Made by a program: the position numbers and the translations under genes
The notes under the pieces: model-generated
Database searches by the model: none
Seen by the model: the letters and a program-made list of their open reading frames with translations, nothing else
Told to the model about the DNA's origin: nothing
Part shown: positions 307 to 19,043 of the stretch, one piece after another
How the letters are laid out: every line of letters begins with the position of its first letter
Position numbering within the stretch: position 1 is the stretch's first letter
Assembly (NCBI GenBank): GCA_945881835.1
Contig: CAMCVP010000001.1
Location: 496,001-560,000, forward strand
Source of the DNA: Chryseobacterium gleum
Lineage (GTDB): Bacteria > Bacteroidota > Bacteroidia > Flavobacteriales_D > Sanyastnellaceae
Direction: 5' to 3'
DNA: 64,000 bases

Positions 307-3114
307 ATGCCTGCTAGATTTCTCTATTTTGTTTTTGTGTTGCTTTTGTCTTTAGTCTTTGAGAGCGTCTATTCTCAAACGTCGGACAAGAATTATCTTG
401 TTCGTGAGAAATTGTTAACCACGGAAAACGGTCTTGTTTCTCGCGACGTCTATTGTGCGGTTCAAGATGATCTTGGATTTATTTGGTTCGGAACTAAATA
501 CGGTCTGAATAGATTCGATGGGCATAATTGTATTATCTTTAACACGAGCAATGGTCTGTTCTCAAATACAATTACAAATTTGGTGAAAGGCAGTGCCAAT
601 GAAATTTTCATTGAATACGGTGATCAATGGCAGCCCTTTGATATTCAGAACAGAATTGATCTGTTCGATTGCGGTAAACTAAAAGTAGTTGCCACAGTAA
701 CGAAAGAAAATCAGGGTAAATTCAACTCACTTCCACCAGAAGTAATATTAAATTTAAATGAAGGTCGAAATTGGAGAATTCAATCTGTTTCTTTATCCAC
801 GCTTAAAGACAAGCATCAGGTTTCGGATGAGAGTGCCAGATTATATCAATCGCCTTCATGTAACGGCAGGCTATTGGTTACGAGAGATAGAGGCGTGTAT
901 TACCTTGAAGGAGGAATTGAATATGAGGTGTTGAATAGTGAGGAGTTCTTTCGTGAAGGAAATACCACAGTAAATTATTTCTTCAAGGATGTTCAAGGGA
1001 ATATTTGGATTTGTGTAGAGAAGGGTGTTTACAGAATCAATTTGAGAGAGAAAATGTTTCGAACGATGTTTACCTCTCAAGAGTTAAGCGAACATAAGAT
1101 TCCGCAGGTGAGAGGTATTTCTGCATCTGCCCAAGGCTCATTTATACAAGCGGTATTGTTGAACGCATTGATTAGTAAATCCGATGACTTGAATTTTGTA
1201 AGAAAGAACAGTCTCTGTTGGGGATTGTTGGAGTACGACGGTAGAATGTATTTTGCTGCAGATGGAAATTTTATCGAGGCTGAACCTGTTACTTTTCGTG
1301 AAAGAAGAAGTTGCAGACTGAAGCCTGGTATAGACGGAATGGTGAATTGCATTTATCCTGCAAATGATTCTTTGTTTTTGTTGGGGAGAGGAGGTGATAT
1401 ACTGTTTGTGAATAGGAATTCTTTGAAGAGTGAGGTGTTGCTGAAGAAGATAAATTCGTCTATTCCAGATGTTAAAAACGTTTATCGGTTTTTTAATTCT
1501 TCCCGAGGATTAATAGCAGTTGCCGAGAACGGACTTTTTGTATTGTCAGACCATGTTATTGTCGATTATTACGGACCTGAGGCAAAAAGCCCTGATCGAA
1601 ATTTGCCAATATCTTATTTGTTGGATGCTTGTGAAGATGGTTCAAAAAATCTTTGGCTCGGGACAAACGGTCAAGGTTTGGTTAGATGGAATTGGAATAG
1701 CAGTGGTTCTCCAATTGAATATTATTCTACAAGTCAGGGGTTGCCAAGTATGATTATTTATAGACTTGAAAAAGATGAATTAAACAACATATGGGCAAGC
1801 ACAGATGATGGTGTTTTTTCTCTGAATTTGAACTCAAATTTGATTAGAGCATTTAAAATTGAAGATGGCTTGCCTAGTAACGAATTTAATCGCACCTCTT
1901 CTTTTAAAAGTAGTAACGGAGATATTTTTTTTGGAAGCGTAAACGGAGTGGTGTCATTTTCACCAAAGGCTTTTTATTTAAGTGATTATTCAACGTCAGC
2001 GCCACTCAGAGTAGTTGGAATTTCGAAACGAACGAAGGGTAATAACAGTGAGGTTGATTTGGTTGAAACCTTTAATCAAACAGGTCAAATAGTCTGGACA
2101 AATTCCGACTATTTGCTTGAGATTGATTTTGCTTTACTTGATTTTCGGGGCTTTAGTATTAGCTATTCGTATCGTATTCCAGGGATTGTGAATGAATGGA
2201 CATTACTGGAAAGAAACACACTCACGTTGGGGTCACTGCCACAAGGGGTTTTCAATATTGAGGTAAGAGCTCAGCTCGAGAATGGTGAAGTCGTTGAGCA
2301 AAATTTACTCATACCTATTGATGTAGTTCCGCCATTTTATCTGCGTGTTCCATTTGTTCTATCGGCTTTAGCTGGGGCCGTTTTATTGGTTTTTTTCATA
2401 GTCTGGGGAAGAGGAAGAAAATTGAAAAATCAGAATTTGAAATTGGAAGGATTGGTGCTAGATAGAACGAACGACTTAGTGAAGAGTTTAGAAGAGAAAG
2501 ATATTTTACTCAAAGAACTTCACCACCGAGTGAAAAACAATTTACAGACAATTATTTCGCTGCTGGATCTTCAAAAAGAGCAATTGAAAGATTCAAGTGC
2601 AATTGAAGCATTAAATGTAAGTCAAACGCGATTGTCGAGCATCGCTTTAATCCACGAAAACTTTTATAACACTGATAATCTCAAAGACATCAGCTTTGAT
2701 TCTTTTATTTTGGATTTGACCAATGCGATTCAAATTTCATTCGGGAAAACAGCGAGTGAGGTTCATTTTGAACTTCGTGACAGTGATATTTGTATTGACA
2801 TTGCCTCTGCAATTCCGCTAGGACTTGCGGTAAATGAGCTTTTAACGAACTCATTTAAACACATAGATGCGACATGTTACCCTGTTGTAATAACCATTGA
2901 GCTTGTAGAGGTGAACTCGTATGAATATGAGTTGACCTATAGAGACAATGGCCAGGGCTTTCCGGTTGATGAAATTATGCACAAGCCGAACTCATTGGGA
3001 TTGAAATTGGTTAAAGGGTTGACATCACAATTAAAGGGAAAACTTGACTATTCAAACAACAACGGGAGCATATTTGTAATACGATTTCCTAAAAACCGAA
3101 ATTCGAAGAAATGA
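307..3114 (+). CDS. Propeller-type sensor histidine kinase (HisKA_2 class)
   Basis: This is a 935-residue membrane sensor kinase. A signal peptide ends near residue 23. It is followed by a long periplasmic region with two-component-regulator beta-propeller repeats of the pattern D..G.(I/L)W(F/L)GT..GL.R, for example near residues 50-75 and 440-460. A Y_Y_Y-like domain follows, then one transmembrane helix near residues 677-701 and a coiled linker. The kinase core carries ELHHRVKNNLQ with the His739-His740 pair, which is the HisKA_2/HWE-like phosphoacceptor signature. Next come an N box (NELLTNSFKH) and G boxes (DNGQGFP and SLGLKLV). The stop codon overlaps the start of the response regulator in an ATGA, so the two form a translationally coupled pair. 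The ligand is unknown. Confidence 0.92.
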   Translation: MPARFLYFVFVLLLSLVFESVYSQTSDKNYLVREKLLTTENGLVSRDVYCAVQDDLGFIWFGTKYGLNRFDGHNCIIFNTSNGLFSNTITNLVKGSANEIFIEYGDQWQPFDIQNRIDLFDCGKLKVVATVTKENQGKFNSLPPEVILNLNEGRNWRIQSVSLSTLKDKHQVSDESARLYQSPSCNGRLLVTRDRGVYYLEGGIEYEVLNSEEFFREGNTTVNYFFKDVQGNIWICVEKGVYRINLREKMFRTMFTSQELSEHKIPQVRGISASAQGSFIQAVLLNALISKSDDLNFVRKNSLCWGLLEYDGRMYFAADGNFIEAEPVTFRERRSCRLKPGIDGMVNCIYPANDSLFLLGRGGDILFVNRNSLKSEVLLKKINSSIPDVKNVYRFFNSSRGLIAVAENGLFVLSDHVIVDYYGPEAKSPDRNLPISYLLDACEDGSKNLWLGTNGQGLVRWNWNSSGSPIEYYSTSQGLPSMIIYRLEKDELNNIWASTDDGVFSLNLNSNLIRAFKIEDGLPSNEFNRTSSFKSSNGDIFFGSVNGVVSFSPKAFYLSDYSTSAPLRVVGISKRTKGNNSEVDLVETFNQTGQIVWTNSDYLLEIDFALLDFRGFSISYSYRIPGIVNEWTLLERNTLTLGSLPQGVFNIEVRAQLENGEVVEQNLLIPIDVVPPFYLRVPFVLSALAGAVLLVFFIVWGRGRKLKNQNLKLEGLVLDRTNDLVKSLEEKDILLKELHHRVKNNLQTIISLLDLQKEQLKDSSAIEALNVSQTRLSSIALIHENFYNTDNLKDISFDSFILDLTNAIQISFGKTASEVHFELRDSDICIDIASAIPLGLAVNELLTNSFKHIDATCYPVVITIELVEVNSYEYELTYRDNGQGFPVDEIMHKPNSLGLKLVKGLTSQLKGKLDYSNNNGSIFVIRFPKNRNSKK

Positions 3115-3719
3115 AGAAAATTGGCGTTATCGAAGACGAGATTATAATTGCAGAATCTATCTGTTTAGCTCTTCGCAAGTTGAATTACGAGGTCGTTGGT
3201 CCTGCTTTGAATTGCGAAGAAGCCATTCAAATGTTAGCAGAGGATAATCCAGATTTAATTATTTTGGATATCAACTTGAATGATGTCCGCGATGGAATTG
3301 AATTGGGTGATTTTGTGAATAAGCACTACGGAATTCCAATTGTCATATTAACGGCTAATAGCGATCTTCAAACCATTGAAAGAGCCAAGCCAATGAGACC
3401 CGCTGCGTTTCTTGTCAAGCCGTTTAAAAAAGAAGATTTGCTGTCATCCATTGAAATTGCACTTTCAAACCATCAGAGTTCAAAACTGACATTGGATTTT
3501 CAAAATTCAGTTTTCGTAGAACGCTTGAAAAGGAGTTATGAAATCACAGACAGAGAGATTGAAATTATTTCTTTCGTTTCAAAGGGAAGAAAACAGAAAG
3601 AAATAGGACTATTACTTGAAATATCAGAGGCTACGGTGAAAAGACATTTGTCGAATATCTTTTTAAAGATGGATGTGAATTCAAGTATCGAGATGCTGAA
3701 TAAGTTGCAGGCGGATTAA
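3111..3719 (+). CDS. Response regulator with receiver and LuxR-type HTH
   Basis: This 202-residue protein has a CheY-like receiver with acidic residues in EDE (8-10), the phosphoacceptor Asp53 in ILDINL, and the conserved Lys in LVKPFKK. A C-terminal NarL/LuxR-type helix-turn-helix spans about residues 138-202 (ITDREIEIISFVSKGRKQKEIG and then SEATVKRHLSNIF). It overlaps the kinase gene by 4 bases and is its presumed partner. NarL-family regulators bind short palindromes. It is therefore a candidate, unproven, for the 16-bp palindromes found at 6.9 and 11.9 kb. Confidence 0.93.
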   Translation: MKKIGVIEDEIIIAESICLALRKLNYEVVGPALNCEEAIQMLAEDNPDLIILDINLNDVRDGIELGDFVNKHYGIPIVILTANSDLQTIERAKPMRPAAFLVKPFKKEDLLSSIEIALSNHQSSKLTLDFQNSVFVERLKRSYEITDREIEIISFVSKGRKQKEIGLLLEISEATVKRHLSNIFLKMDVNSSIEMLNKLQAD

Positions 3720-3769
3720 TTTTCTAGTTTAGTTTTTTCAATCGAAATGTTTAATGTGTTCACGAATGG

Positions 3770-4543: not shown

Positions 4544-4582
4544 CTTCTAAGTATGAATTGTAAAAAAAAAAGATCTTGTGTT

Positions 4583-5788: not shown

Positions 5789-5819
5789 ATTAAAGATGAT
5801 TAGTCACGAATTTGTTGAA

Positions 5820-6848
5820 TTATTTGCTGTTGTCAACGTTCTTAATAAATGTAACCACACCATTCATAAATACTTGTTGGTCGTCCCACATCGATAAATG
5901 ACTTCCATTCGGGCAGAACAAATAACTTCCTTTCTGTACTATTTTACTTTGCTCTTCCATAGCTAGAGGATCCATCGTGTCGTATTTCGCTCCAATCATT
6001 AATGTTGGTGTAGCAATTTCGTGAAGTCTGTTTTTAATGTCCCAATTGGCAAGTCTTCCGCTTATTCCGAATTCGCTAGGACCTTGCATTAAAACGTAAA
6101 TGTCGTTGTTTGCATGTTTGATTGAACGATTCAATGCTTCAGGCCATTCTTTCAATCTGCAAATGTGTTCGTTGTAAAAATTCGGAATGAGTAGTTCCAT
6201 ATAACGAGGATTTGCAAAATCTTTTTTTGCCTCTAGGTTTCGGATTTCACTAAGCACTTGAGGTGACATTTGTTTAGAAAGCACTTCTTCTGCGTATTTG
6301 CCGTATTCAGGTGCACTAGCCATCATGTTTGCGATAATCAGCCCTTTCAAATTTTGTTGATATTTCAATGCATATTCCATAGCCAAAATGCCTCCCCAAG
6401 AATTGCCAAGAATGAAGAAGTTAGATTGGTCCGCACCGATTGCTTTTCTGACTTGCTCAACCTCTTCAACGAATCGCTCTGTTGACCATAAACTGCTATC
6501 AACAGGCTGGTCGCTGTAATAGGAACCGAGCTGGTCATATTCGTAAAATTCAAATCCTTCTTTTTGAAAGAATGTTTCGAAACATTCCATGTACTCATGC
6601 GTCATAGCTGGTCCGCCGTGGAGCAAAAGGATTTTTATTTTCGGGTTATTTCCAAACCGTTTCGTCCAAACATTGAATATACCTTTCGGTGTCTCGATTG
6701 GAATCAATCGAACTCCACCAGACTGAATTTCTTGGTCGTAGGAAAAGTAATTTGAAAGTGTGATGTTTTTTTCTTCGTGGTCAGGTGAGCATCCAGTTGC
6801 AAGAAATCCAAATAGAAGAAGTAAGGAGTATTTAAATGACTTAATCAT
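5820..6848 (-). CDS. Alpha/beta hydrolase lipoprotein, proline iminopeptidase-like
   Basis: This 342-residue protein has a lipobox (FLATGC, Cys20), so it should be anchored in the periplasm or at the surface. The alpha/beta hydrolase core shows the oxyanion-hole LHGGPAMTHEY, the nucleophile elbow GNSWGG (catalytic Ser), an Asp in MIGAKYDTMDP and a His in NGSHLSMW. This is the full triad as in prolyl aminopeptidases and related S33 hydrolases. The gene is divergent from the panD-like operon. The 16-bp palindrome sits midway between the two starts (50 bases from each). A minus-7-like TAGATTGG lies 22 bases from the palindrome edge, so it is probably regulated together with that operon. Confidence 0.88.
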   Translation of the reverse strand: MIKSFKYSLLLLFGFLATGCSPDHEEKNITLSNYFSYDQEIQSGGVRLIPIETPKGIFNVWTKRFGNNPKIKILLLHGGPAMTHEYMECFETFFQKEGFEFYEYDQLGSYYSDQPVDSSLWSTERFVEEVEQVRKAIGADQSNFFILGNSWGGILAMEYALKYQQNLKGLIIANMMASAPEYGKYAEEVLSKQMSPQVLSEIRNLEAKKDFANPRYMELLIPNFYNEHICRLKEWPEALNRSIKHANNDIYVLMQGPSEFGISGRLANWDIKNRLHEIATPTLMIGAKYDTMDPLAMEEQSKIVQKGSYLFCPNGSHLSMWDDQQVFMNGVVTFIKNVDNSK

Positions 6849-6867
6849 ATCGCGAAAATAGGAAAGA

Positions 6868-6875
6868 CCAATCTA
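6868..6875 (-). promoter_or_regulatory. Putative minus-7 box of the hydrolase lipoprotein gene
   Basis: Read on the minus strand this is TAGATTGG, one mismatch from the Bacteroidota TAnnTTTG element. It starts exactly 22 bases from the edge of the 16-bp palindrome. The expected transcript start is about 7-13 bases upstream of the ATG at 6848. Confidence 0.45.
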
Positions 6876-6894
6876 AATATGATTTTCCTGCTGA

Positions 6895-6913
6895 GGCTAC
6901 AACTATAGTTGTA
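6895..6913. promoter_or_regulatory. Palindromic operator, copy 1
   Basis: GGCTACAACTATAGTTGTA occurs here. Its last 16 bases (6898-6913) are a perfect palindrome, TACAACTA/TAGTTGTA. The same 19 bases recur at 11891-11909. It is placed between divergent genes with TA-starting minus-7 boxes 22 bases from each edge. Its centre would lie about 43 bases upstream of the predicted panD-operon start, which is where a class II-type activator (for example LuxR-type) would bind. The cognate regulator is unknown. Confidence 0.7.
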
Positions 6914-6935
6914 TCAGAGTCCTTGCTCGAAAGAC

Positions 6936-6943
6936 TAGCTTTG
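6936..6943 (+). promoter_or_regulatory. Minus-7 box of the panD-P450 operon
   Basis: TAGCTTTG is an exact match to TAnnTTTG. It lies 22 bases after the palindrome and 19 bases before the panD ATG. No well-spaced TTG minus-33 element is present; the palindrome occupies that area. This fits an activator-dependent promoter. Confidence 0.55.
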
Positions 6944-6962
6944 AAAAGCTAAAAGTGCAACT

Positions 6963-7352
6963 ATGGAAGATCAGTTTTTTGTTTTAAAATCTAAAATACA
7001 CCGAGCGCGTGTGACACAGGCGAAATTAGATTATGTCGGAAGTATAACAATAGATCAGCTTCTTTTAGACGCGGCAGGTATTCATGTTTACGAGAAGGTA
7101 CTCATTACGAACATGCGTAACGGCAGTCGAATTGAAACGTATGTTTTAAGTGGAAAGGAAGGGTCGGGCGTTGTGTGCATGAATGGCCCATGCGCACATC
7201 AATTTCATAAGGGAGACGAGGTCTTGATTATGGCATTTAAAATGACAAATAAAGAGGGGCTAATTTCAGCTGAACCAAAGGTTATTTTCCCTTCGAATTT
7301 GAATAAGGAGTTTACAACTGGAGATTTACATCATCATATTAAAGAAGATTAA
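6963..7352 (+). CDS. Pyruvoyl-dependent decarboxylase, divergent PanD (aspartate 1-decarboxylase-like)
   Basis: This is a 129-residue PanD homologue. Canonical PanD makes beta-alanine from aspartate after self-cleavage at Gly-Ser to form a pyruvoyl group. Visible features are the cleavage site Tyr24-Val-Gly26-Ser27, the early Lys in LKSKIHR, the Arg56 and Tyr60 pair in SRIETY, and Asn74-Gly75. The usual NGAAA block reads NGPCA here, and the C terminus is longer than in standard PanD. It is not next to panB or panC. It opens an operon with a P450 and two acyltransferases, which suggests a specialised role, perhaps supplying beta-alanine or another decarboxylated amino acid. Being the only aspartate decarboxylase of the cell remains possible. 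Confidence 0.85.
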   Translation: MEDQFFVLKSKIHRARVTQAKLDYVGSITIDQLLLDAAGIHVYEKVLITNMRNGSRIETYVLSGKEGSGVVCMNGPCAHQFHKGDEVLIMAFKMTNKEGLISAEPKVIFPSNLNKEFTTGDLHHHIKED

Positions 7353-7415
7353 GAAATTGGTTGATTCGAGGTTTCGAACAAATTGTAATGATACTTATTC
7401 TAGCCTTAAATATGT

Positions 7416-8774
7416 ATGACAGTGATAACTAGTCCAAAGTTTATAAAAGGCAGGTGGCCCTTGGGTTGTTTGAAAGAAATTCGAAAAGATCCCATTCAAT
7501 TTGGAAAATCGGTTTCATTACTGAATCCACCATTGGTCGAGGTGAGGGTAATGGGGGAGTCGGTTTATTTCACTTCCGATACACATGTAGCGCACGAGAT
7601 TTTAGTCAGCTCTGCAAGTCTTACAAATCGAGGGAAGAATTATAAAATTCTTGAGAGTTTGGCGGGTCACGGATTGTTTTCGAGTGAGGGTGTTTATTGG
7701 AAACAACAACGTAAGACAATTCAGTCAAGTATGGGGCACAGTCATTACGACAAGTACATAGAGATTTTTGAAAACATTTCAAATGAGTTTGAAGTCGATT
7801 GGAATAATCGTCAAGGAGAAGAAATGAAGATGGCCGATGAGATGAGTATTTTCACCATACGTGCAATCAGTATTTCGCTTTTTTCTTTTGATATCTTGAA
7901 GAAATACCCAACTGCTATTCATGATATTTTTTACTTGTTGAGATTCATAAATCTGCGCTATTATGACTGGCTGCGATTACCATTGTGGCTTCCTTTTCCA
8001 AATTTTATAAAGTTTAATCGCACACTTAATAGGTTAGATCAAGTTGTTTTAGATATTATTCAAAAAAGAAGAGAGAGTGGAGAGCCTAAGGGAGATATGT
8101 TGGATTTGCTTTTGGAAGGTTTGGATGGGCTGAGCGGAAAGCCGCTGAGCAATAAACAAATTAGGGATGAGGTCTTAACAATCATTGCTGCAGGATTTAA
8201 AACAAGTGCGGCAACACTGAGTTGGATTTGGTATCAGTTGAGTAAGAACCCTATTGTTCTTCAGAAAATGAGATTGGAAATAAAGGGGACTTTAGGTTCA
8301 GGGAAATTAGATTCAAAAAACATTCATTTGTTGAAGTATACACGAAGTGTAATTAATGAGGGATTGCGCATGTGCCCTAGCGCATTTGCTGTGTCGCGCA
8401 ACTTTAATAGCGATGTGGAAGAGTTTGCCGGCATTAAAGTGAAGGGAGGCTCAAGAGTAATCACATCGATATTCGGGGTTCATTACAATCCGGAGTATTG
8501 GGACGATCCGGAGGAGTTCAATCCTGATCGCTTCATTGAAGACGAAAAGGAGTTAAAGCGGAAAGCGGTTTTTATTCCCTTTGGAATGGGAGCAAGAATA
8601 TGCTTGGGAGCAGAGTTTGCTATGTTGGAAATGACGACTGTCCTTGCCAAGTTGGTAAGTAAATTCACTCCCGTTTGCAGAGATGATTATCATCCCAAAA
8701 TGATAGCTGCAATTGCTATTCAGTTTAATGAAGAGATGCCCTTGCGAATGGAGTCTTTTGATGAAAAAAAATAA
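7416..8774 (+). CDS. Cytochrome P450
   Basis: This 452-residue soluble P450 has all core elements: the ExxR pair in NEGLR (about residues 314-318), a PERF-like FNPDRF, and the haem loop FGMGARICLG with thiolate Cys396. The I-helix oxygen-activation motif, normally AGxETT or AGxDTT, reads A-G-F-Lys262-Thr263-Ser264. The usual acid is therefore a lysine. No ferredoxin or reductase gene is adjacent. It starts 63 bases after the PanD-like gene and ends 7 bases before the next gene, within one apparent operon. It presumably oxidises an intermediate or a lipid chain made by the neighbouring enzymes; the substrate is unknown. Confidence 0.95.
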   Translation: MTVITSPKFIKGRWPLGCLKEIRKDPIQFGKSVSLLNPPLVEVRVMGESVYFTSDTHVAHEILVSSASLTNRGKNYKILESLAGHGLFSSEGVYWKQQRKTIQSSMGHSHYDKYIEIFENISNEFEVDWNNRQGEEMKMADEMSIFTIRAISISLFSFDILKKYPTAIHDIFYLLRFINLRYYDWLRLPLWLPFPNFIKFNRTLNRLDQVVLDIIQKRRESGEPKGDMLDLLLEGLDGLSGKPLSNKQIRDEVLTIIAAGFKTSAATLSWIWYQLSKNPIVLQKMRLEIKGTLGSGKLDSKNIHLLKYTRSVINEGLRMCPSAFAVSRNFNSDVEEFAGIKVKGGSRVITSIFGVHYNPEYWDDPEEFNPDRFIEDEKELKRKAVFIPFGMGARICLGAEFAMLEMTTVLAKLVSKFTPVCRDDYHPKMIAAIAIQFNEEMPLRMESFDEKK

Positions 8775-8781
8775 AGAATAG

Positions 8782-9321
8782 ATGGATTCGGAATTAAATG
8801 GTAAGATTCTTCGATTGTTAGATTTTCCAGAGTTAAAGGAAGATTTTGAGACAAGTTTTTTCAGTGCTTTTCAGCATTTGCCACAAGTTTTGTTGCAACA
8901 AATTTGGGATATCGATTACGAGAAGAAAACAGTCAACTTGAAGTCAAATCCAGAAACTACTTTTATTATCCCGTGGATTGTAAATGACAAGGCGTTAGCT
9001 TACTTAGCTTTTCAAGAAGACGGTACCGACTCGTTCAGTCAAGTGAATTTTTTCGGCTTTTCTAATCCTCAATACCAAGGGCCGACAGTTGAAGTATTGA
9101 CTTTATTTCGTTCAGAACACTCTATAGATGAAGACTTGAATTTAAAAAGAGATTTCCTGATCGGTATTTGTTGGAGTGCTCTGAGATCCAAGGGTTATAA
9201 GTTAGCACATGCCACTTGTACTCAAAAAATTCTTCCCTTATACAGAAGGTGGGGATTTGATGTAATTGGGGAGCGTGAAATTGATGGTTTAAAGCGATTC
9301 CATATTTCATATCAAGATTGA
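8782..9321 (+). CDS. GNAT-fold acyltransferase-like protein (FeeM/LuxI-like size)
   Basis: This is a 179-residue protein. The C-terminal half looks like a GNAT fold: a strand with an acidic start (VEVLTLFRSEHS), then a helix after KRDFLIGICWSALRSKGY. Next comes AHATCTQKILPLYRRWGF, the typical A/B-motif ending in LYRRWGF, and a final strand. Its length and layout resemble N-acyl amino acid synthases (FeeM) and acyl-homoserine-lactone synthases. The classical R/QxxGxG/A acetyl-CoA loop is not clear, as in those relatives. It starts 7 bases after the P450 stop and is very likely co-translated with it. The assignment to GNAT is moderate and the specific function is inferred from context only. Confidence 0.6.
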   Translation: MDSELNGKILRLLDFPELKEDFETSFFSAFQHLPQVLLQQIWDIDYEKKTVNLKSNPETTFIIPWIVNDKALAYLAFQEDGTDSFSQVNFFGFSNPQYQGPTVEVLTLFRSEHSIDEDLNLKRDFLIGICWSALRSKGYKLAHATCTQKILPLYRRWGFDVIGEREIDGLKRFHISYQD

Positions 9322-9349
9322 GGTAAAAAAACAAAACTATCTTTCAGAA

Positions 9350-10132
9350 ATGTATGATACACCTTATAAAATAAGGGTTTTTCCAAAGATGAGGATGCTC
9401 ATCTCAGAATATTTGCGTCGGTCGAGGATTAAAAACAACATTAATTTATTTGTCGAGGCTGATGTGACAAACTTGATGCGTTTTAAACAAGAAAAGAAAG
9501 AGTTGGGTTTAGATTTTTCATTGCCGATTTATATTCTCTATTGTTTTGCTAGGTTACTTCAAAATCATCCTGATTTAATATCGATGCGAAAGGGTAATAA
9601 ACTATTTCAGTTTGAGAATGCGGATATATTAACAGTAGTAGAACGAGAAGGAGAAAATGGAACTAAGGTGCCTATGGCAATAATAATAAGGAATGCAGGA
9701 GCGAAGAGCTACTTAGAAATACACAATGAAATTCGTAATTCTCAGGAGGAGCAGCCAGAGAATATTTTAGAGGTCAAAAAAAGAAGAAGGTTGCTCAATT
9801 TTCCAAGTTGGTTAATAAGGTTGAGTATTGCACGCGCTCAGTCGCATCCCGTCCGTTATTGTAAACATTACGGAAATGCGGCATTTACATCACCTGTTCG
9901 AGGTGGCAATGCTCGATTTTCTATAGCTGTGCCAATAAGTTCATGTACTCTAACATTATTGCTCAACAGTACTTTTAAAAAAGTGATAAGTGTAAATGGA
10001 AGTTTTGTTGAATCGACATTTATGGGTTTCACTTTTGTTGTTGATCACGATATTATTGATGGGGCTAGGGGTATGCGAATTGTAGAAGAATTTTGTAAAA
10101 TGGTTGAAGCCTTTCCTGTTTTGGATAAATAG
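9350..10132 (+). CDS. Stand-alone E2/CAT-like acyltransferase (2-oxoacid dehydrogenase acyltransferase fold)
   Basis: This 260-residue protein belongs to the chloramphenicol acetyltransferase and E2 catalytic-domain superfamily. The active-site motif HxxxDG is present near the C terminus as HDIIDG (about residues 233-238). AFTSPVRGGNARFSIAVPIS resembles the conserved substrate-channel strands. There is no lipoyl or E1/E3-binding domain, so it is not a dehydrogenase complex subunit. In the operon it probably transfers an acyl group from CoA to an intermediate of the P450/PanD pathway. Confidence 0.8.
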   Translation: MYDTPYKIRVFPKMRMLISEYLRRSRIKNNINLFVEADVTNLMRFKQEKKELGLDFSLPIYILYCFARLLQNHPDLISMRKGNKLFQFENADILTVVEREGENGTKVPMAIIIRNAGAKSYLEIHNEIRNSQEEQPENILEVKKRRRLLNFPSWLIRLSIARAQSHPVRYCKHYGNAAFTSPVRGGNARFSIAVPISSCTLTLLLNSTFKKVISVNGSFVESTFMGFTFVVDHDIIDGARGMRIVEEFCKMVEAFPVLDK

Positions 10133-10162
10133 ATATTATTAGTTTAACATTTAAACTTAAAA

Positions 10163-10945
10163 ATGAAAAAGAATTATTTACTCATGTTAGTTTGGATTTG
10201 TTTTGGTACAAATCTAAATGCCCAAGAATGGATTGATCTCACTCACCCTTTCGATTCAACCACATTGTATTGGCCAAACAATAAATTGAATTTTCAGCAT
10301 ACCACAGACTACAGGGGTGTAGTAAAGCCAATGGGTTATTTTTATTCGTCTTATTCCATTTCTGCGCCTGAACACGGAGGTACCCATTTAGATGCGCCTG
10401 TTCATTTTGCGAATGGAAAACAAACGGTTGACCAGATTCCTTTGGAACACCTGGTGGGAGATGCTGTGGTTATTGATGTTTCTTCAAAAGCTTTGAAGGA
10501 CAGAGATTATTTGATTAGTGTTGACGATTGGAAATCTTGGGAACATAAATACGGAAGAGTTCCAAAAGGCAGCATTGTTTTATTTAAAACAGGTTATTCA
10601 ACTTTTTATCCGGATAGAGAAAAGTACTTTGGTACAGCTTTACACGGTGATGAGGCCATACCCGAGCTTCATTTCCCCGGAATTTCGCCAGAACTAGCGA
10701 ATTGGATTGTTGCTGAAAGATCTATTAAAAGTTTTGGAATTGATACTCCGAGTATGGACTATGGTCAATCCATAGATTTTTTAGTACATCGAATTATGTT
10801 GGGTCAAAATATACCAGGTTTTGAGAATGTAAATCTCTCTATGGATTTGCCCGCCAAAGGACTCTATGTTGTTGCTATGCCAATGAAAATTGCACAAGGG
10901 AGTGGTGCACCACTTCGAATAATGGCAAGTATAAAACACAAGTAA
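10163..10945 (+). CDS. Secreted cyclase-family hydrolase (kynurenine formamidase-like)
   Basis: This is a 260-residue protein with a signal peptide ending near residue 20 (NLNAQ). It belongs to the metal-dependent cyclase/formamidase family (PF04199 type). The metal-binding signature HGGTHLDAPVHF is intact (pattern HxGTHxDxPxH), and a later GIDTPSMDYG block is also typical. Known members hydrolyse N-formylkynurenine or similar amides; the export signal places this one in the periplasm or outside the cell. It is the last gene of the operon and could process or degrade the exported product. Confidence 0.88.
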   Translation: MKKNYLLMLVWICFGTNLNAQEWIDLTHPFDSTTLYWPNNKLNFQHTTDYRGVVKPMGYFYSSYSISAPEHGGTHLDAPVHFANGKQTVDQIPLEHLVGDAVVIDVSSKALKDRDYLISVDDWKSWEHKYGRVPKGSIVLFKTGYSTFYPDREKYFGTALHGDEAIPELHFPGISPELANWIVAERSIKSFGIDTPSMDYGQSIDFLVHRIMLGQNIPGFENVNLSMDLPAKGLYVVAMPMKIAQGSGAPLRIMASIKHK

Positions 10946-10959
10946 GCTCCTTCTAGTAT

Positions 10960-11859
10960 TTACATAGTCAAACGCAATCCAATAGACAACTGAAAATTTA
11001 AATGTGCGTCTTTCTCTACTTTCCAATGATTGGTAGGAGCGTGGTCGGAGTATTGAGTGCTTCCAAAATTGAATGTTGTTTTTCCAAATCGGGCACTAGA
11101 TCCTTCAATCACAAGTGATAAGTTGCTGTTTAATTGGCGAGTCGCGCCAAATTTCCAAGTTATGTTATTCGTAATTCCCGCTGCTCTGTTATTACCATTG
11201 AAGTGATTCACCGCTCCGCCATCTTCGTCTGCTGTGGTTTCAAAACCTGGAGGTGTTGATGCTGGGCTCATTTGACGGCTAATTGCATTTTTAGCATCAA
11301 GAAGTGTCACTCCAAAACCGGCTGTAGTCTGAATAGATGTTTTTTCGTCAAGTGATTTAGTAAAGCCAATTTCTGCGTTTGTAGAGTAGGAGTATAGAGC
11401 AAATTCATTTTCGAAAATATGATGGTGAGTTCCATAGTGTTCGTTCACAAAGTCAATAACTTCAGCACCATTAGCACCGTTGATATTTGAAACAATTTCA
11501 TTGTTTTCGTTTGCAAGAGTTGTCAGTATTTCAGCTTTGTTGAAGTTGAAATTCATTCCAACCAACAAGTTCCATTTTTTTTCTTTGTTAATTTTCAGTT
11601 GTCCAGCACTTGCACTAAATCCGTAGGAAGTAGCCATTTCGCTTTTGCCTTTTACGTTCACATTTAAATCGAAATCTGTATCAAATTCATTGAAGTCTCC
11701 GCGTTTGTGAGCTACTCCGAGTTGTTGAAAATTGATCCCAGTATGCAGGCCAACCCCAGTCTGTATTTGCAAATAGGATTGCGTTGTGCTTATTGAGTTT
11801 TGCGCGAATCCGATTTTGGAGAGCAATAGGATAGCAGTAATTGCTGTAGTTGATTTCAT
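10960..11859 (-). CDS. Outer-membrane beta-barrel-like protein of unknown function
   Basis: This 299-residue protein has a signal peptide (IGFAQ, cleavage near residue 20). Its alternating amphipathic strands are rich in Gly, Tyr and Asn, and the last strand ends LNFQLSIGLRLTM, as in outer-membrane barrels of Bacteroidota. No family was recognised. It converges with the cyclase-family gene (14 bases apart) and is divergent from the giant protein gene, with palindrome copy 2 between them. The start ATG lies 4 bases after a putative minus-7 box (TATTCTCG), so its mRNA may be leaderless. Confidence 0.7.
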   Translation of the reverse strand: MKSTTAITAILLLSKIGFAQNSISTTQSYLQIQTGVGLHTGINFQQLGVAHKRGDFNEFDTDFDLNVNVKGKSEMATSYGFSASAGQLKINKEKKWNLLVGMNFNFNKAEILTTLANENNEIVSNINGANGAEVIDFVNEHYGTHHHIFENEFALYSYSTNAEIGFTKSLDEKTSIQTTAGFGVTLLDAKNAISRQMSPASTPPGFETTADEDGGAVNHFNGNNRAAGITNNITWKFGATRQLNSNLSLVIEGSSARFGKTTFNFGSTQYSDHAPTNHWKVEKDAHLNFQLSIGLRLTM

Positions 11860-11863
11860 TCGT

Positions 11864-11871
11864 CGAGAATA
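11864..11871 (-). promoter_or_regulatory. Putative minus-7 box of the outer-membrane protein gene
   Basis: On the minus strand this is TATTCTCG, a weak match (two mismatches) to TAnnTTTG. It is placed exactly 22 bases from the palindrome edge, like the other three promoters of the two palindrome regions. Confidence 0.35.
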
Positions 11872-11890
11872 CTATTTAAAATGAACTTTC

Positions 11891-11909
11891 GGCTACAACT
11901 ATAGTTGTA
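11891..11909. promoter_or_regulatory. Palindromic operator, copy 2
   Basis: GGCTACAACTATAGTTGTA recurs here, identical over 19 bases to copy 1. The 16-bp perfect palindrome is 11894-11909. It lies in the divergent region between the outer-membrane protein and the giant MopE-repeat protein. Because both spacing and sequence are conserved, it is probably bound by the same regulator. Confidence 0.7.
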
Positions 11910-11910
11910 C

Positions 11911-11939
11911 TTGATTTCAAAGGATGAAAGATATTTTCG
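11911..11939 (+). promoter_or_regulatory. Promoter of the giant MopE-repeat gene
   Basis: TTG at 11911-11913 and TATTTTCG at 11932-11939 are separated by 18 bases, a good match to Bacteroidota minus-33/minus-7 elements. The palindrome ends two bases upstream of the TTG. The expected leader is about 80 nucleotides. Confidence 0.5.
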
Positions 11940-12023
11940 CAATGAAGTCTTCGAGTGTTCATTCTAATAGTTATTGGATTGAAAATAAAAGGCGAACGCT
12001 TATATAATTACATTTTATTAAAG

Positions 12024-15000
12024 ATGAAAAGAATTAGTTACATCTGTCAAAAATCACTTTTGTTTTTTTTGGTGATTTTTAGTTTTTTATTTTCAAATTT
12101 TTCGTGGTCACAGTGCAACGGTCTTCCATACAATCAGTACTATTATGATTATGATGGAGACGGATACGGAACAAGTTCTGTTTTTAGTGGTGGGACATCG
12201 GAGGATTATGGTTCAGGACAATATTTGACTTGGCAACCTTTGACAGTGAATTTGGCCACCCCAGTCGCTTATTTGTCGAGTTTTGCATTTTCTGTGAACA
12301 ATATTATTGGATTGTCTCAATGTACTTTTCAATTCTACAATGGACCCAATCTTGTTGCAACAGAATATGCATATCCTTCCAACGGGGCAGGAGTAAATTC
12401 AAGCCATACTTTTACAACGCCACTGCTGGATATAACGAGCGTGGTCGTTTATTCTTATTGGAATCCGTCTTTTTTGAATGACCTAACCTTAACTTCAATT
12501 TCGAGCTCAATTGAGGCCTGCACACAGCCTAGCGGATATTCATTGAATAATTCAGATTGTTACGATTTTAATGCTTCCATAAATCCAATGGCTCTTGATA
12601 TTTGTAATTCAATAGACGACAATTGCGATACTCAAGTTGATAATGCGACGTATTACGCCGATTCTGACCTTGACGGTTATGGAAGTTTAACAACGACAAT
12701 TTTAGAACAGGGAAATGCCGACGTGAGTTTTCAGAATGGGAATATTGTTATTATAGGTTCTAACTCAGATGTTTTTATACCTCTTCTCGAAAGTAGGATT
12801 ACCTACACATCACTTGTGAACCAAGTAATTACATTAGACTGGTCCTACAATACAACAGATGAATTGGGTCTTGATCCTGCTTATTATTACATCAATGGTG
12901 TTCAGTTTTCACTAAGCGATAATGTTGGTCAGGTGCAACAAAGCGGCAGTTTGAGTCTTTCCGTGAATGCAGGACAGACTATCTCGTTTGCCATTATTTC
13001 TGAGGACAATGTAGGAGGTGCAGCCACCTTAATTATTTCGAATTTAAATGGGGCTTTCGTGGGACAGGCAACTGCTTGTTCAGCACCATCTGGGTATGTG
13101 GCTAATAACGGAGATTGTAATGATAGCAATGGGAGTATTCACCCTGGAGTTGCAGAGCTATGTAATAACATTGATGACGACTGCAACGGGAGTATAGAAA
13201 CGTATCAATATTACTATACCGATACAGATAATGATGGATATGGTAATGCCACTAACACGCAGATCACCCAAGGAAATTCGTCAATTGTGTTTAATCAAAA
13301 TGGCATTGTAATACAGGGGTCTAATAGCTATTCTAATGGAGAAGATTTAAGTTGTAGTATTACCTATACTTCAACATCGAATCAAACGGTAAGTTTCAAT
13401 TGGTCATATAGCACATCGGACAGTCCAGATTATGATGACGCATACTATTTAATCAATAACCAACAATTCCCTCTTTCGAATAATGCGGGTTCTAACCAAC
13501 AGAATGGTCAAATTTCATTTTCGGTGAATAACGGGGATACATTCGGTTTTTCAGTCATTTCAATTGATGACGCATACGGAGCTGCTACATTGGCAATCAC
13601 TAATTTGAATGCGCAAATCTCGGGTCAGATGTATTCTTGCACGCAGCCCGTGGGTTACGCTAACAATAATCTCGATTGTAATGGTGGCAATGGTAACATT
13701 TTTCCCGGTCAGGTTGAAACTTGCAACGGAATAGATGATAACTGCAGTGGTCAAATCGATGAAGGTGTTCTTAATGTTTATTACCCCGATACTGATGGAG
13801 ATGGATATGGTCTTCAGAGCGCAACAGTTACTGCGCAAGGTAACTCGAGTATTGTTTATCAAGCTGCTGGATTTACTCTTCAAGGAAGTACAGGAAATAC
13901 CACTCCGGAATCGGTCTCGATAAGTTGGGTTGTCCCTTCATCGGACACCTACTATTTTGCTTACGATTATTCCACATTGGCCAACAATACCTCATCTGAT
14001 GGTGTGACTTGGAGTTTAAATGGTGTTTCAAACGACTTAGTAGTATCCTCAGGGGCTAACATGAACTTTTCAGAAAGTGCATTTATCAATGTTCAGGCGG
14101 GTGATGTTTTCGCAATGACCCTTTCCTCCGCGGGAAATCAGGGGACATCAAGCACCTTTCAGGTTAGTTTTTTTGAAGAGGGGATGTTGCATGCGGGACG
14201 GGTTGAGGCTTGCTCGGCACCAGTAGGATTCTCATTGAACAACAACGACTGCCAACCCACAAATTCAGCAATTAATCCAGGTGCAAGCGAGGTTTGTAAT
14301 GGAGTGGACGATAATTGCAGTGGTCAAATAGATGAAGGAGTTTTAATTCCTTTTTATGCAGATACGGATGGTGACGGATTTGGGTCGGGTGTTTCTAATT
14401 TGGCCTGCACCGCGCCGATTGGATATGTAACGAATAATTCAGATTGCAACGATTCAGATGCTAGTATTAATCCAAATACACAATGGTATGGTGATTTGGA
14501 CGGTGATGGTTACAGCAGCCTTGTTGTTTCTTCTTGCACAAGTCCTGGTGCAAACTACTCGCTGTCTGGAGCAATTGGAGACTGCAATGATGGTAATTCT
14601 GCAATTAACCCGGGAAGTGCAGAGAGTTGCAACGATATAGATGATAACTGCGATACACAGATAGATGAAGGCGTACTTGTACAAAACTATTTTGATGAGG
14701 ATGGTGATGGGTTTGGATCAGCGGTAGTGAATTCTATTCCTTCATGTTCTCAATTGGTCGGATATGTAAGTAATAATTCAGATTGTAATGATGGTAGTTC
14801 AGCAGTAAATCCTTCTGTGGTTGAAGTTTGTAACGGTATAGATGATAACTGTGATGACCAGATCGATGAAGGATTGGTTAATTTTTACTACAGTGATCTT
14901 GACCAAGATGGATACGGTTCAGACGGAGTAACAGAGAGTTTCGCTCCAGGAGCATGGATTTTATATACCCCAACAACTTTTGTTTTGGTCGGTACACCAC

Positions 15001-18000
15001 AACAATGGAATGGTGTTTCGAACAGCGTTCAATTTGTAGCGCCAACAACAGAGACTTATACTTTTAATTGGGCATACGCAGTATTGGCAGACCCCAATCA
15101 AGATCCAGGTTATTATTTTGTCAATGGTCAAGTTGTTCAACTATCAAATGATTGGGGTGCAAATTATCAGTCAGGATATGTTTCAGTTTCCTTGAATGCA
15201 GGTGATACTTTTGGATTTGGGATCAATTCCTTGGACGATGAGGCGGGACCTGTGTGGTTGGAGATTTCTAACTTCAGTGCAAGATCATACATTGGAGTAA
15301 CTCCCTCATGTACGCAACCAGTAGGGTATGTGTTGACTAATGACGATTGTGATAATGCAAATCCAGCAATTAATCCGGGAGCAGTGGAGATCTGCAACAG
15401 CATAGATGAAAATTGTGATTCAGAAATTGATGAAGGGGTTCAAAATACGTATTATGCAGATGCAGATGGTGATGGATTTGGGGGCAACTCAGAATTTTTA
15501 GCGTGCACAGTTCCCGCAGGATATAGCGCTAACAATTCAGATTGTAATGACAGCTTGGCTTCAAATAATCCCTTATCAAGTGAAATTTGCAATGGCATTG
15601 ATGATAATTGCAACGGTCCATCGGATGAAGGTGTGCAAAGCATATTTTATTACGATGGAGACAACGATGGATTCGGGACAAGCGAAGTTTTCAGCGGACA
15701 GAGTGCCCAGAATTACGGAGCAGGTCAATACCTCGGTTCTTGGGGTCATACGTTCAACTTTCCGACAGCATTAAACAACATAATTAGTTTTAGTTACTCC
15801 ATTACCAATACAGCGGCTATGTCGCAGTGTGTTTTTCGATTCTATGACGGAGGAAATCTAATTGCATCAGTAGAGGCATACCCTCAAAACGGAGAGACAA
15901 TCAGTACCGTTCATAATTTTACTTCTCCTTTGTTTAATATTACGAGCGTAATTGTTTTTTCATATTGGAATCCGGCGTATTTAAATAGTCTGACCTTTAA
16001 TGCCATTCCAAGCTCGGTTAATGCTTGTACACAACCTGTCGGTTACGCCTCGAATAACACTGATTGTAACGATAATAACTTGTCGGTAAATCCGGGTGTA
16101 TTTGATGTTTGCAATGCAATAGATGACAATTGTGATACACAGGTTGACAATGGGTTGTATTATGCAGATAATGATGGAGACGGTTTTGGTTTCATGGGGA
16201 CTGGTGTATTGGCTTGTTCTGCTGTCGTAGGTTATGTGACAGATAGTAGCGATTGTGATGATAACCTCGCTGCCGTTTATCCTGGAGCAACAGAAATTTG
16301 TAACAGCATCGATGACGATTGCGATACACAAATCGACGAAGGCGTTCAGACCAACTATTATGTAGATAACGATGGTGATGGATTTGGAGCAGGCACAGCT
16401 ACTTTAGCTTGTGCATCACCAACTGGATTTGTAACCACCAATACAGACTGCAACAACACCAACGCGGCGGTTAATCCTGATGCAACAGAAGTATGTAACA
16501 GCATCGATGACGACTGCGATACGCAAATCGATGAAGATGTTCAAAACAATTATTTCACAGACGCAGATGGTGATGGGTATGGAACAGGCATAGCAATTTT
16601 AGCATGTACAGCGCCAGCAGGATTTGTTGCAACCAATGCGGACTGCAATGACACCAACGAGGCAGTATATCCTGGAGTGACAGAAGTATGTAATAGCGTA
16701 GACGACAATTGCGATACGCAAATCGACGAAGGCGTACAAAATAGTTATTATGCAGATGCAGATGCAGATGGTTTCGGAACGGGAACAATAACATTTGCTT
16801 GTGCAGCTCCAATGGGTATGGTTGCTAACAATACCGATTGTAACGATGCCCTTGTTACAGTTTATCCGGGTGCACCAGAAGTTTGTAATAGTATAGATGA
16901 CGATTGCGACGGTGGAATAGATGAAGCGGGAGCTCTTACTGTTCCAGAAGTTGTGGCCTCATGTGGACCATACACATGGAACGAAAACAATACGACCTAT
17001 AACACTTCAGGTACCTACTACGCGAACATCCCCGCTGCAACCACATATAACTCATACGAAACCTTTGTCTCTGCCGCGAATAGCGCTGGATATCAACTTT
17101 CAGAAACAGAGGATTTTAGTGGATATTCAGGGTATATGGCTTCAGTTAGTGGAGATTTGGGTGTTGGTTTCCCAACATGGACAGCCACTCAAACCCAAGG
17201 GCAATATCCGTCAATACATGCAATCTCGGTGGGCGGGAGTCAAACTATTGGAGGAAACGCGTATGCTTCTCCAGTTAGTATTCAGTTCTCTTCAGGTGTT
17301 ACGGGTGTGGGAGGAAATTTCTTCGTTTCAAGTGTTTTCGGAGTTGTTTTAAATGCTACAGTGAACATTAACTTGTCTGATGGAACGGCTGTTTCCTTAA
17401 CAATAGGCTCAGCATCTACTTTTACTGGATTTACTACAAATGGACTTTTAATTGAGAGCATAACAATAAATACACCTTTTGTTAATGGGCCAACCAATCC
17501 GTATGTAAGGATTGACAACCTTGTTGTAACAACCGGAACACCTGTATTGCCTTGTGGTGTTGATGTTTTAAATTTAACAATTAACACACCATCATCTTAT
17601 TACGCAGATGTGGACGGAGATGGTTATGGTGCAGGCACTGCAACAAATGCATGTGCTCAATCAACCGGCTTCGTTGCAACTAACACGGATTGTAACGATA
17701 CCAATGCCGCTGTAAATTCTGCAGCTATTGAAATTTGTAACAATATAGATGATAACTGCGACGGTATTATCAACGAAGGTTGTCCTTCGCTCGATACATC
17801 GGAAGAAGTAACCGCTTGTCAATCCTATACCTGGAATGGTCAAACGTATACAACTTCGGGAACGTATACCTACAATGCAACAACCCAAGCTGGTTTCCCA
17901 TACACTGAAACGCTAATTTTAACTATTCAAAGTGCTGTGCCATCAACGCCGTCTTCAGTTACCGGGGAAGGTTACGCTTGTGAATTTTTGCAAGGTGGAA

Positions 18001-19043
18001 CCACGGATTATTCAACGTTGCTTGTTTCAGATGTTACTTACCAATGGGCAGCACCTGTTGGAATGAATTTACTAAATGGACAGGGAACAAACAATATCAC
18101 AGTTTCTTTCAATAGCAATTATGCGACGGCAAATTTGAGGGTGCGTGCCGTAAATAGTTGCGGTGCTAGCCCATACAAATTCTTTAAGGTGAAACGAATT
18201 GCCCCGAAAGTTCCAAGTTCAATTACTTCCACAAGTTCAAAGGCTTGCCCTGGTGATCAAGTGACTTTTACTTCAGCAATTGCGTCAAATGCTACTTCTT
18301 ACTATTGGACAGCACCATTAGGTGCAAGTGTTACGTCTGGTCAAGGAACGAATGTTGCTACAATCACCTTTGGTAATGGTTTTAATGCTGCAGGAAACAT
18401 TACAGTAACTGCTGTTAATGGATGTGGTGCAAGCGTTGAAAGGGCCAAAATAATAAACTTAAATTTGCCAATCTTGCCAAGTGTTATAACAGGTACGCGC
18501 ACTGTTACTCAAAACCAAACAGCAGTTCCTTACTCAGTTGTGAATGTGCCAGGTGTGAATTACAATTGGACAGTAGATTCGAGTTTCGGGGGCATAGTAT
18601 CTGGACAAGGGAACAACGCAATCTTAGTGAATGCTACGAACATCGTTGGAACGGGTTATACGATGTCTGTAACGGCAAGTAACGGTTGCGGCACTTCGCC
18701 TGTTCGCGCTATTTCTAACTTGAAAATTGTTGCTGACGTGTCTGCTCTTGAACTAGCTGAGACAACGGGTTCCCCAATTGAGAAAACAGATTTAACCTCA
18801 GCGGCAAACATCACAATCTTCCCTAATCCGGCCCGTGATTTCGTGTCCTTGAAATTACTTAATGTCGAAGAGGGAGCTGTATCTCAAATTACGATCTATG
18901 ATTTAACTGGAAAGCAGATATACACCTTGCAATCGACTTCAAGTTTGCAAACGATAGATGTTAGTCAGTTCGCATCAGGTATGTATATTGTTAAGGTGAA
19001 AACTAAAACAGATAATTTCCTTCAGAAATTACAACTGAATTAA
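12024..19043 (+). CDS. Giant secreted protein with MopE-type metal-binding repeats and T9SS sorting domain
   Basis: This is a 2339-residue protein if translation starts at the ATG at 12024, chosen because a classic signal peptide (LLFFLVIFSFLFSNFSWSQ) begins there. An upstream in-frame codon at 11955 would add 23 unlikely residues. About 14 copies of the Cys-rich motif CNxIDDNCDxxIDEG with following YxDxDGDGFG calcium-like loops run through residues 165-1920. They belong to the putative metal-binding motif family (MopE, PF11617 type). Between them lie at least four beta-rich inserts and two copies of an SGxxxxxYGxGQYL module. PKD-like segments follow, then a T9SS type A sorting domain (ITIFPNPARDFVSLKL onward) to the end. 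It should be exported by type IX secretion and act at the surface, plausibly in metal binding or adhesion. Confidence 0.92.
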   Translation: MKRISYICQKSLLFFLVIFSFLFSNFSWSQCNGLPYNQYYYDYDGDGYGTSSVFSGGTSEDYGSGQYLTWQPLTVNLATPVAYLSSFAFSVNNIIGLSQCTFQFYNGPNLVATEYAYPSNGAGVNSSHTFTTPLLDITSVVVYSYWNPSFLNDLTLTSISSSIEACTQPSGYSLNNSDCYDFNASINPMALDICNSIDDNCDTQVDNATYYADSDLDGYGSLTTTILEQGNADVSFQNGNIVIIGSNSDVFIPLLESRITYTSLVNQVITLDWSYNTTDELGLDPAYYYINGVQFSLSDNVGQVQQSGSLSLSVNAGQTISFAIISEDNVGGAATLIISNLNGAFVGQATACSAPSGYVANNGDCNDSNGSIHPGVAELCNNIDDDCNGSIETYQYYYTDTDNDGYGNATNTQITQGNSSIVFNQNGIVIQGSNSYSNGEDLSCSITYTSTSNQTVSFNWSYSTSDSPDYDDAYYLINNQQFPLSNNAGSNQQNGQISFSVNNGDTFGFSVISIDDAYGAATLAITNLNAQISGQMYSCTQPVGYANNNLDCNGGNGNIFPGQVETCNGIDDNCSGQIDEGVLNVYYPDTDGDGYGLQSATVTAQGNSSIVYQAAGFTLQGSTGNTTPESVSISWVVPSSDTYYFAYDYSTLANNTSSDGVTWSLNGVSNDLVVSSGANMNFSESAFINVQAGDVFAMTLSSAGNQGTSSTFQVSFFEEGMLHAGRVEACSAPVGFSLNNNDCQPTNSAINPGASEVCNGVDDNCSGQIDEGVLIPFYADTDGDGFGSGVSNLACTAPIGYVTNNSDCNDSDASINPNTQWYGDLDGDGYSSLVVSSCTSPGANYSLSGAIGDCNDGNSAINPGSAESCNDIDDNCDTQIDEGVLVQNYFDEDGDGFGSAVVNSIPSCSQLVGYVSNNSDCNDGSSAVNPSVVEVCNGIDDNCDDQIDEGLVNFYYSDLDQDGYGSDGVTESFAPGAWILYTPTTFVLVGTPQQWNGVSNSVQFVAPTTETYTFNWAYAVLADPNQDPGYYFVNGQVVQLSNDWGANYQSGYVSVSLNAGDTFGFGINSLDDEAGPVWLEISNFSARSYIGVTPSCTQPVGYVLTNDDCDNANPAINPGAVEICNSIDENCDSEIDEGVQNTYYADADGDGFGGNSEFLACTVPAGYSANNSDCNDSLASNNPLSSEICNGIDDNCNGPSDEGVQSIFYYDGDNDGFGTSEVFSGQSAQNYGAGQYLGSWGHTFNFPTALNNIISFSYSITNTAAMSQCVFRFYDGGNLIASVEAYPQNGETISTVHNFTSPLFNITSVIVFSYWNPAYLNSLTFNAIPSSVNACTQPVGYASNNTDCNDNNLSVNPGVFDVCNAIDDNCDTQVDNGLYYADNDGDGFGFMGTGVLACSAVVGYVTDSSDCDDNLAAVYPGATEICNSIDDDCDTQIDEGVQTNYYVDNDGDGFGAGTATLACASPTGFVTTNTDCNNTNAAVNPDATEVCNSIDDDCDTQIDEDVQNNYFTDADGDGYGTGIAILACTAPAGFVATNADCNDTNEAVYPGVTEVCNSVDDNCDTQIDEGVQNSYYADADADGFGTGTITFACAAPMGMVANNTDCNDALVTVYPGAPEVCNSIDDDCDGGIDEAGALTVPEVVASCGPYTWNENNTTYNTSGTYYANIPAATTYNSYETFVSAANSAGYQLSETEDFSGYSGYMASVSGDLGVGFPTWTATQTQGQYPSIHAISVGGSQTIGGNAYASPVSIQFSSGVTGVGGNFFVSSVFGVVLNATVNINLSDGTAVSLTIGSASTFTGFTTNGLLIESITINTPFVNGPTNPYVRIDNLVVTTGTPVLPCGVDVLNLTINTPSSYYADVDGDGYGAGTATNACAQSTGFVATNTDCNDTNAAVNSAAIEICNNIDDNCDGIINEGCPSLDTSEEVTACQSYTWNGQTYTTSGTYTYNATTQAGFPYTETLILTIQSAVPSTPSSVTGEGYACEFLQGGTTDYSTLLVSDVTYQWAAPVGMNLLNGQGTNNITVSFNSNYATANLRVRAVNSCGASPYKFFKVKRIAPKVPSSITSTSSKACPGDQVTFTSAIASNATSYYWTAPLGASVTSGQGTNVATITFGNGFNAAGNITVTAVNGCGASVERAKIINLNLPILPSVITGTRTVTQNQTAVPYSVVNVPGVNYNWTVDSSFGGIVSGQGNNAILVNATNIVGTGYTMSVTASNGCGTSPVRAISNLKIVADVSALELAETTGSPIEKTDLTSAANITIFPNPARDFVSLKLLNVEEGAVSQITIYDLTGKQIYTLQSTSSLQTIDVSQFASGMYIVKVKTKTDNFLQKLQLN
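12514..17785 (+). repeat. MopE-type motif repeat region inside the giant gene
   Basis: Fourteen degenerate repeats encode CN-x-(I/V)DD-x-C and an aspartate-rich DxDGDG(F/Y)G loop. Copies between about 16270 and 16760 are the most alike at DNA level and lie in direct tandem. Unrelated beta-rich inserts separate the earlier copies. Such identity favours slippage or recombination and may vary between strains. Confidence 0.85.

Follow-up and report, generated by a model that had tools for sequence, protein, structure and literature searches.

The locus analyzed here raises the question of why one perfect 16-bp palindrome stands in two neighboring divergent intergenic regions, and which protein would read it there. 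Both copies lie in the window, i.e., the whole stretch of 64,000 nucleotides from Chryseobacterium gleum that was analyzed (assembly GCA_945881835.1, contig CAMCVP010000001.1, positions 496,001 to 560,000). They are best read as operators of a NarL/FixJ-type regulator with a LuxR-type helix-turn-helix (HTH) domain, most likely the one encoded at 3111-3719, which would act by class II activation. A probability of about 0.66 is given to this reading, as judged from sequence. The two copies are:

6898..6913, no strand: putative operator S1, TACAACTATAGTTGTA, a 7-2-7 inverted repeat (TACAACT-AT-AGTTGTA)
11894..11909, no strand: putative operator S2, the same 16-mer as S1, with the identity extending over 19 bases including GGC at the left

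There were exactly two occurrences of GGCTACAACTATAGTTGTA, whose central 16 bases form a perfect palindrome. Each copy was found inside a divergent intergenic region, with approximately 5 kb between them. S1 and S2 were the sole matches in the window when up to three mismatches were allowed, and the entire genome, 2.53 Mb in size and 99.3% complete, held no other copy at up to one mismatch. At three mismatches, the 16-mer was found at 18 places and its reversed control at 18, which corresponds to background. An earlier sequence-only reading of this DNA had placed the identical palindromes at these positions in divergent regions, which was confirmed, and had named many copies unrelated to promoters as an outcome that would refute it; with only two copies in the genome, it was not refuted. 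The 7-base elements of S1 and S2 are inverted and 2 bp apart, as in NarL/FixJ operators, and the palindromes as a whole are very likely operators. At each of their four edges, a predicted -7 box begins after exactly 22 bases:

6936..6943, + strand: predicted -7 box with the sequence TAGCTTTG, 22 bases away from S1 and assigned to the panD-P450 operon, 6/6 matches to TAnnTTTG, predicted start 6948
6868..6875, - strand (read 6875-6868): predicted -7 box with the sequence TAGATTGG, 22 bases away from S1 and assigned to the hydrolase gene, 5/6, predicted start 6863
11932..11939, + strand: predicted -7 box with the sequence TATTTTCG, 22 bases away from S2 and assigned to the giant surface-protein gene, 5/6, predicted start 11944
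11864..11871, - strand (read 11871-11864): predicted -7 box with the sequence TATTCTCG, 22 bases away from S2 and assigned to the outer-membrane-protein gene, 4/6 and the weakest, predicted start 11859

Summed over the four edges, the match to TAnnTTTG was 20/24 at a distance of 22 bases (next best distance, 12). This score was reached by none of 5000 dinucleotide shuffles and none of 5000 random quartets of upstream sequence. The chance rate per single edge was 0.0015 for 6/6, 0.012 for at least 5/6, and 0.022 for TA with at least 4/6. The TAnnTTTG box of Bacteroidota sigma-A promoters was present at all four edges with the scores listed, and the TTTG at -33 was absent, its position being occupied by the palindrome end and its flank. 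Data from F. johnsoniae likewise lack a -33 motif (PMC7366714). In F. psychrophilum, the sigma-A -7 box was mapped to -12 to -5 (PMC9723704), and because the spacing is 22 bases, the palindrome would extend from -50 to -35 with its center at -42.5, in agreement with class II sites (center near -41 to -44). The 22-base distance from all four edges had been claimed in the sequence-only reading and holds exactly, and its placement of the palindrome in the -33 region, centered near -43 as in class II activation, is supported. The two rightward promoters are likely to be real, while the leftward pair, being less certain, was given a slightly better than even chance.

NarL binds 16-bp 7-2-7 inverted repeats; at yeaR-yoaG it activates from one site that lies directly upstream of the -35 element, and at ogt from an improved site centered at -44.5 (PMC7419079). 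The window resembles these E. coli promoters in its 16-bp 7-2-7 repeat, its single site near the -35 region, and its protein with receiver and GerE domains. It differs from NarL in the half-site TACAACT, the Bacteroidota sigma-A promoter with a -7 box alone, the center at -42.5, the HisKA_2 kinase with propeller repeats, and the use of one site between two promoters. Class II activation appears to be the best reading because the arrangement at -42.5 is NarL-like and the promoters lack TTTG at -33. The candidate regulator is encoded together with a kinase:

307..3114, + strand: sensor kinase with Reg_prop repeats, HisKA_2, and HATPase_c
3111..3719, + strand: LuxR/NarL-type response regulator with receiver and GerE domains, the proposed activator

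By Pfam, the 3111 regulator was the sole recognizable DNA-binding protein in the interval 307-19043. Five GerE proteins are encoded in the genome, and in a tree only the 3111 protein joined the clade of HisKA_2 partners, while the other four formed a separate group. Eight congeners had no orthologue of the P450, the outer-membrane protein, or the 3111 regulator, and their genomes also lacked the 16-mer. Since all four are absent from these congeners, S1, S2, and the regulator share one species-specific stretch. Sequence comparison points to the 3111 protein as the probable ligand of both sites.

Loci in other genomes were chosen by protein homology to the 3111 regulator alone, with no selection on DNA motifs. 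At several of them, 16-bp palindromes of the type TCACCCnnnnGGGTGA adjoin the regulator gene or precede a large neighboring gene. Six of these palindromes were exact and four had one mismatch, and a box ending in TTTG followed at exactly 22 bases in 8 out of 10 (L129, L130, L131, L132 with two sites, L139, L136, and L134; L132 and L139 belong to the same genus and are only partly independent). Two palindromes other than these eight, in L129 and L130, lie 33-42 bp before the kinase open reading frame of the kinase-regulator pair and have no 22-base box. No other palindrome type with a box at 22 bases gave a peak in the fetched loci. When 399 genomes of the order were scanned, the pattern TCACCC-N4-GGGTGA-N22-N4-TTTG turned up at 39 sites, spread over 17 of the genomes, and its reversed control gave no match. 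Position 2 of the box, left open in the pattern, was A in 33 of 38 sites, so the boxes linked to TCACCC sites are -7 boxes. Of 60 genomes, seven had a LuxR-type homologue (E <= 1e-30) and nine were TCACCC-positive, and five belonged to both groups (a hypergeometric P of about 4e-4, calculated by hand). As in the NarL/FixJ type, homologous regulators are linked to operators of the same length with the same promoter spacing.

The window genome had no match to the TCACCC pattern, and its palindromes do not carry the TCACCC half-site. With the TCACCCnnnnGGGTGA regulon (17 genomes, same order), the window shares the 16-bp palindrome, the 22 bases, the -7 box, the homologous HisKA_2 kinase-regulator pair, and large T9SS-exported targets (T9SS, type IX secretion system); that regulon differs in its half-site (TCACCC versus TACAAC), its mostly one-sided sites, and its TPR-sensor kinases. 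The recognition helix is ATVKRHLSN in the window protein versus mostly NTVKTHL (TVKTHL[LQV]) in the TCACCC-linked regulators. The change of helix and the change of half-site appear to agree, as a single case and not as a proven code. Downstream of the TCACCC sites, most frames open with a signal-peptide-like stretch (by eye) at 10-90 bases past the box, and several of the genes carry T9SS sorting or T9SS-associated domains. The giant gene of the window fits these sister targets, as its product has 2339 aa, 14 MopE motifs, and a Por_Secre_tail.

In general, the genes at the TCACCCnnnnGGGTGA sites (L129, L130, L131, L132, L134, L136, L139, and L204-L235) encode proteins that appear to be exported and are often giant or T9SS-tagged, and in L224 one TCACCC site precedes a gene for a TPR-HisKA_2 kinase.

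The genes around S1 and S2 are as follows:

5820..6848, - strand: lipoprotein-like hydrolase of the proline-iminopeptidase family, predicted leftward target of S1
6963..7352, + strand: aspartate 1-decarboxylase (PanD), encoded first in the predicted rightward S1 operon
7416..8774, + strand: cytochrome P450; its homologue, encoded within the same set of genes at L145, is 37% identical
8782..9321, + strand: GNAT-like protein, no Pfam hit and assigned by eye, homologue in L145
9350..10132, + strand: 2-oxoacid dehydrogenase acyltransferase-like (CatA-like) protein, homologue in L145
10163..10945, + strand: cyclase/arylformamidase-like protein
10960..11859, - strand: outer-membrane-like protein, assigned by eye, predicted leftward target of S2, homologue found in 0 of 60 relatives
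12024..19043, + strand: surface protein with 14 MopE motifs, PKD_6, and the T9SS sorting domain Por_Secre_tail, predicted rightward target of S2

In the proposed mechanism, the HisKA_2 kinase would phosphorylate the 3111-3719 regulator, whose dimer would bind the 7-2-7 repeat at -42.5 in place of the -33 element. The bound dimer would recruit RNA polymerase in a class II manner to promoters with a -7 box alone. A single dimer may serve both directions, so that the two sites would switch on a local regulon comprising the PanD-P450-GNAT-acyltransferase-cyclase operon and the giant T9SS-exported MopE-repeat protein, and probably also the hydrolase and the outer-membrane protein.

Several observations weigh against this reading. 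The preference for activation over repression is read off the geometry alone. The leftward boxes are the poorer matches (5/6 and 4/6), and the box at 11864..11871 would give a leaderless mRNA for the outer-membrane protein, with the predicted start at the A of its ATG (11859). The promoter of the hydrolase gene cannot be assigned uniquely because a second TATTTTCG box lies 37 bases from S1. In relatives, the box mostly occurs on one side of the TCACCC sites only. The 16-mer was found in 93 DNA stretches across 84,980 genomes, mostly scattered, and these showed no peak for a box at 22 bases and just one weak regulator close by. The 3111 protein is only approximately 40% identical to its homologues, and the sensor part of its kinase consists of Reg_prop repeats, in contrast to TPR in the kinases of the homologues. 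A different recognition helix is needed for a different half-site and is no proof of TACAAC; no further TACAAC-type site with a linked LuxR-type regulator was found, and the window kinase gene has no palindrome upstream.

Neither the geometry of the sites nor their uniqueness tells which protein would bind them, and S1 and S2 could be class II-type operators for an activator whose gene lies in some other part of the genome (a different LuxR-type protein, CRP/FNR, MarR, or similar). The GerE family, as surveyed in the genome, offers four further proteins for this role. However, the four fall outside the clade, and the regulon does not extend beyond the species-specific interval in which the 3111 regulator is also encoded, with the sites, the regulator, the P450, and the outer-membrane protein absent from the eight congeners, which makes another activator unlikely. 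A repressor is more doubtful still. Its dimer over -35 to -50 would block polymerase at both divergent promoters, and BlaI/MecI is the obvious candidate, as the exact 16-mer, extended to TTACTACAACTATAGTTGTAGTAA, stands 26-27 bp before BlaI/MecI-like genes in two Tenacibaculum genomes (L027:6143-6158 and L061:2322-2337), where the downstream protein has 127 aa and was assigned to BlaI/MecI by eye. The palindrome also contains the -33-like triplet TTG, although its distance from the box is 24 bases. While the identical 16-mer thus precedes BlaI-like genes in Tenacibaculum, the window genome lacks a PF03965 repressor, its single hit being a Fic protein with a winged helix, and BlaI/MecI was excluded as the regulator. 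The fixed 22-base spacing in relatives would also be unneeded for a repressor. Of the candidates named in the sequence-only reading, the LuxR-type protein at 3111 gained support, since its homologues adjoin palindromes with the same 22-base geometry, whereas the MecI-type was dropped for want of such a repressor.

S1 and S2 might instead be direct repeats that end an inserted island, i.e., att sites or a target-site duplication, and no operators. The P450 operon and the outer-membrane-protein gene between them are absent from relatives, and the copies are identical across 19 bases. Yet no recombinase gene was recognized between the copies, each copy is a perfect palindrome with boxes at 22 bases on either side, and the regulator, which lies outside the segment, is equally species-specific; an island is therefore very improbable. 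A chance repeat of an AT-rich palindrome could draw on the 93 mostly scattered stretches, but the two copies are exact, lie within 5 kb of each other in divergent promoter regions, and have a common geometry that the shuffles did not reproduce, which makes chance hardly credible. Operators of the 3111 regulator thus remain the preferred reading.

To our knowledge, operators and regulons of Bacteroidota response regulators are largely uncharted, and the sigma-A -33 element is hard to find. NarL-type class II sites are already known. The open literature that was searched, which is part of the whole literature, yielded no constant 22-base spacing rule for Bacteroidota that combines differing half-sites with targets encoding exported proteins, and these searches returned nothing relevant on the 16-mer, TCACCC/GGGTGA, or LuxR-type regulators of T9SS genes. 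It is an evenly balanced proposition that an undescribed Bacteroidota set of HisKA_2 kinase/LuxR-type pairs exists, with 16-bp palindromes 22 bases from a bare -7 box and half-sites that diverge with the recognition helix, mostly controlling large exported (T9SS) proteins, and that a re-specified copy here also took over the PanD-P450-acyltransferase pathway and acts from individual sites on promoters in both directions. The palindrome-22 bases-(-7 box) rule would locate the activator on Bacteroidota promoters, yield targets by a simple pattern search (39 sites), and tie HisKA_2/LuxR-type pairs to exported surface proteins, and the divergent half-site in the source species would be a natural specificity change open to testing. 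The PorXY-SigP system is reported to tie two-component control to type IX secretion, with an extracytoplasmic function (ECF) sigma factor driving secretion-machine genes (PMC4800418). The window resembles it in two-component control and a type IX secretion link in Bacteroidota, and differs in its cargo-type genes, sigma-A-like boxes, and LuxR-type regulator.

Both leftward genes open with TATT(T/C)TCG-N4-ATG (at 6848-6860 and 11859-11871), where the box would give leaderless transcripts. In Tenacibaculum, TTACTACAACTATAGTTGTAGTAA is likely a BlaI operator in Flavobacteriaceae. In one Clostridia metagenome-assembled genome (JAFURP; L028, L043, L063, L068, L072, L073, and L095), the 16-mer lies within a longer dispersed repeat with a TATACTCGGAGCCG flank. 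At L130:12363-12387, before a kinase gene, CAACTATAGTT immediately adjoins TCACCCATTCGGGTGA, a junction which may be a composite site or a coincidence. The set of CatA-like acyltransferase, P450, PanD, and GNAT-like genes (window 6963-10132) recurs in a different order at L145:6767-9788, in a different family of the class, and looks like an uncharacterized pathway. The palindrome was rejected as a part of this P450 gene cluster, as the L145 set has no upstream palindrome of at least 14 bases. P450-CatA pairs were additionally found in L104-L106.

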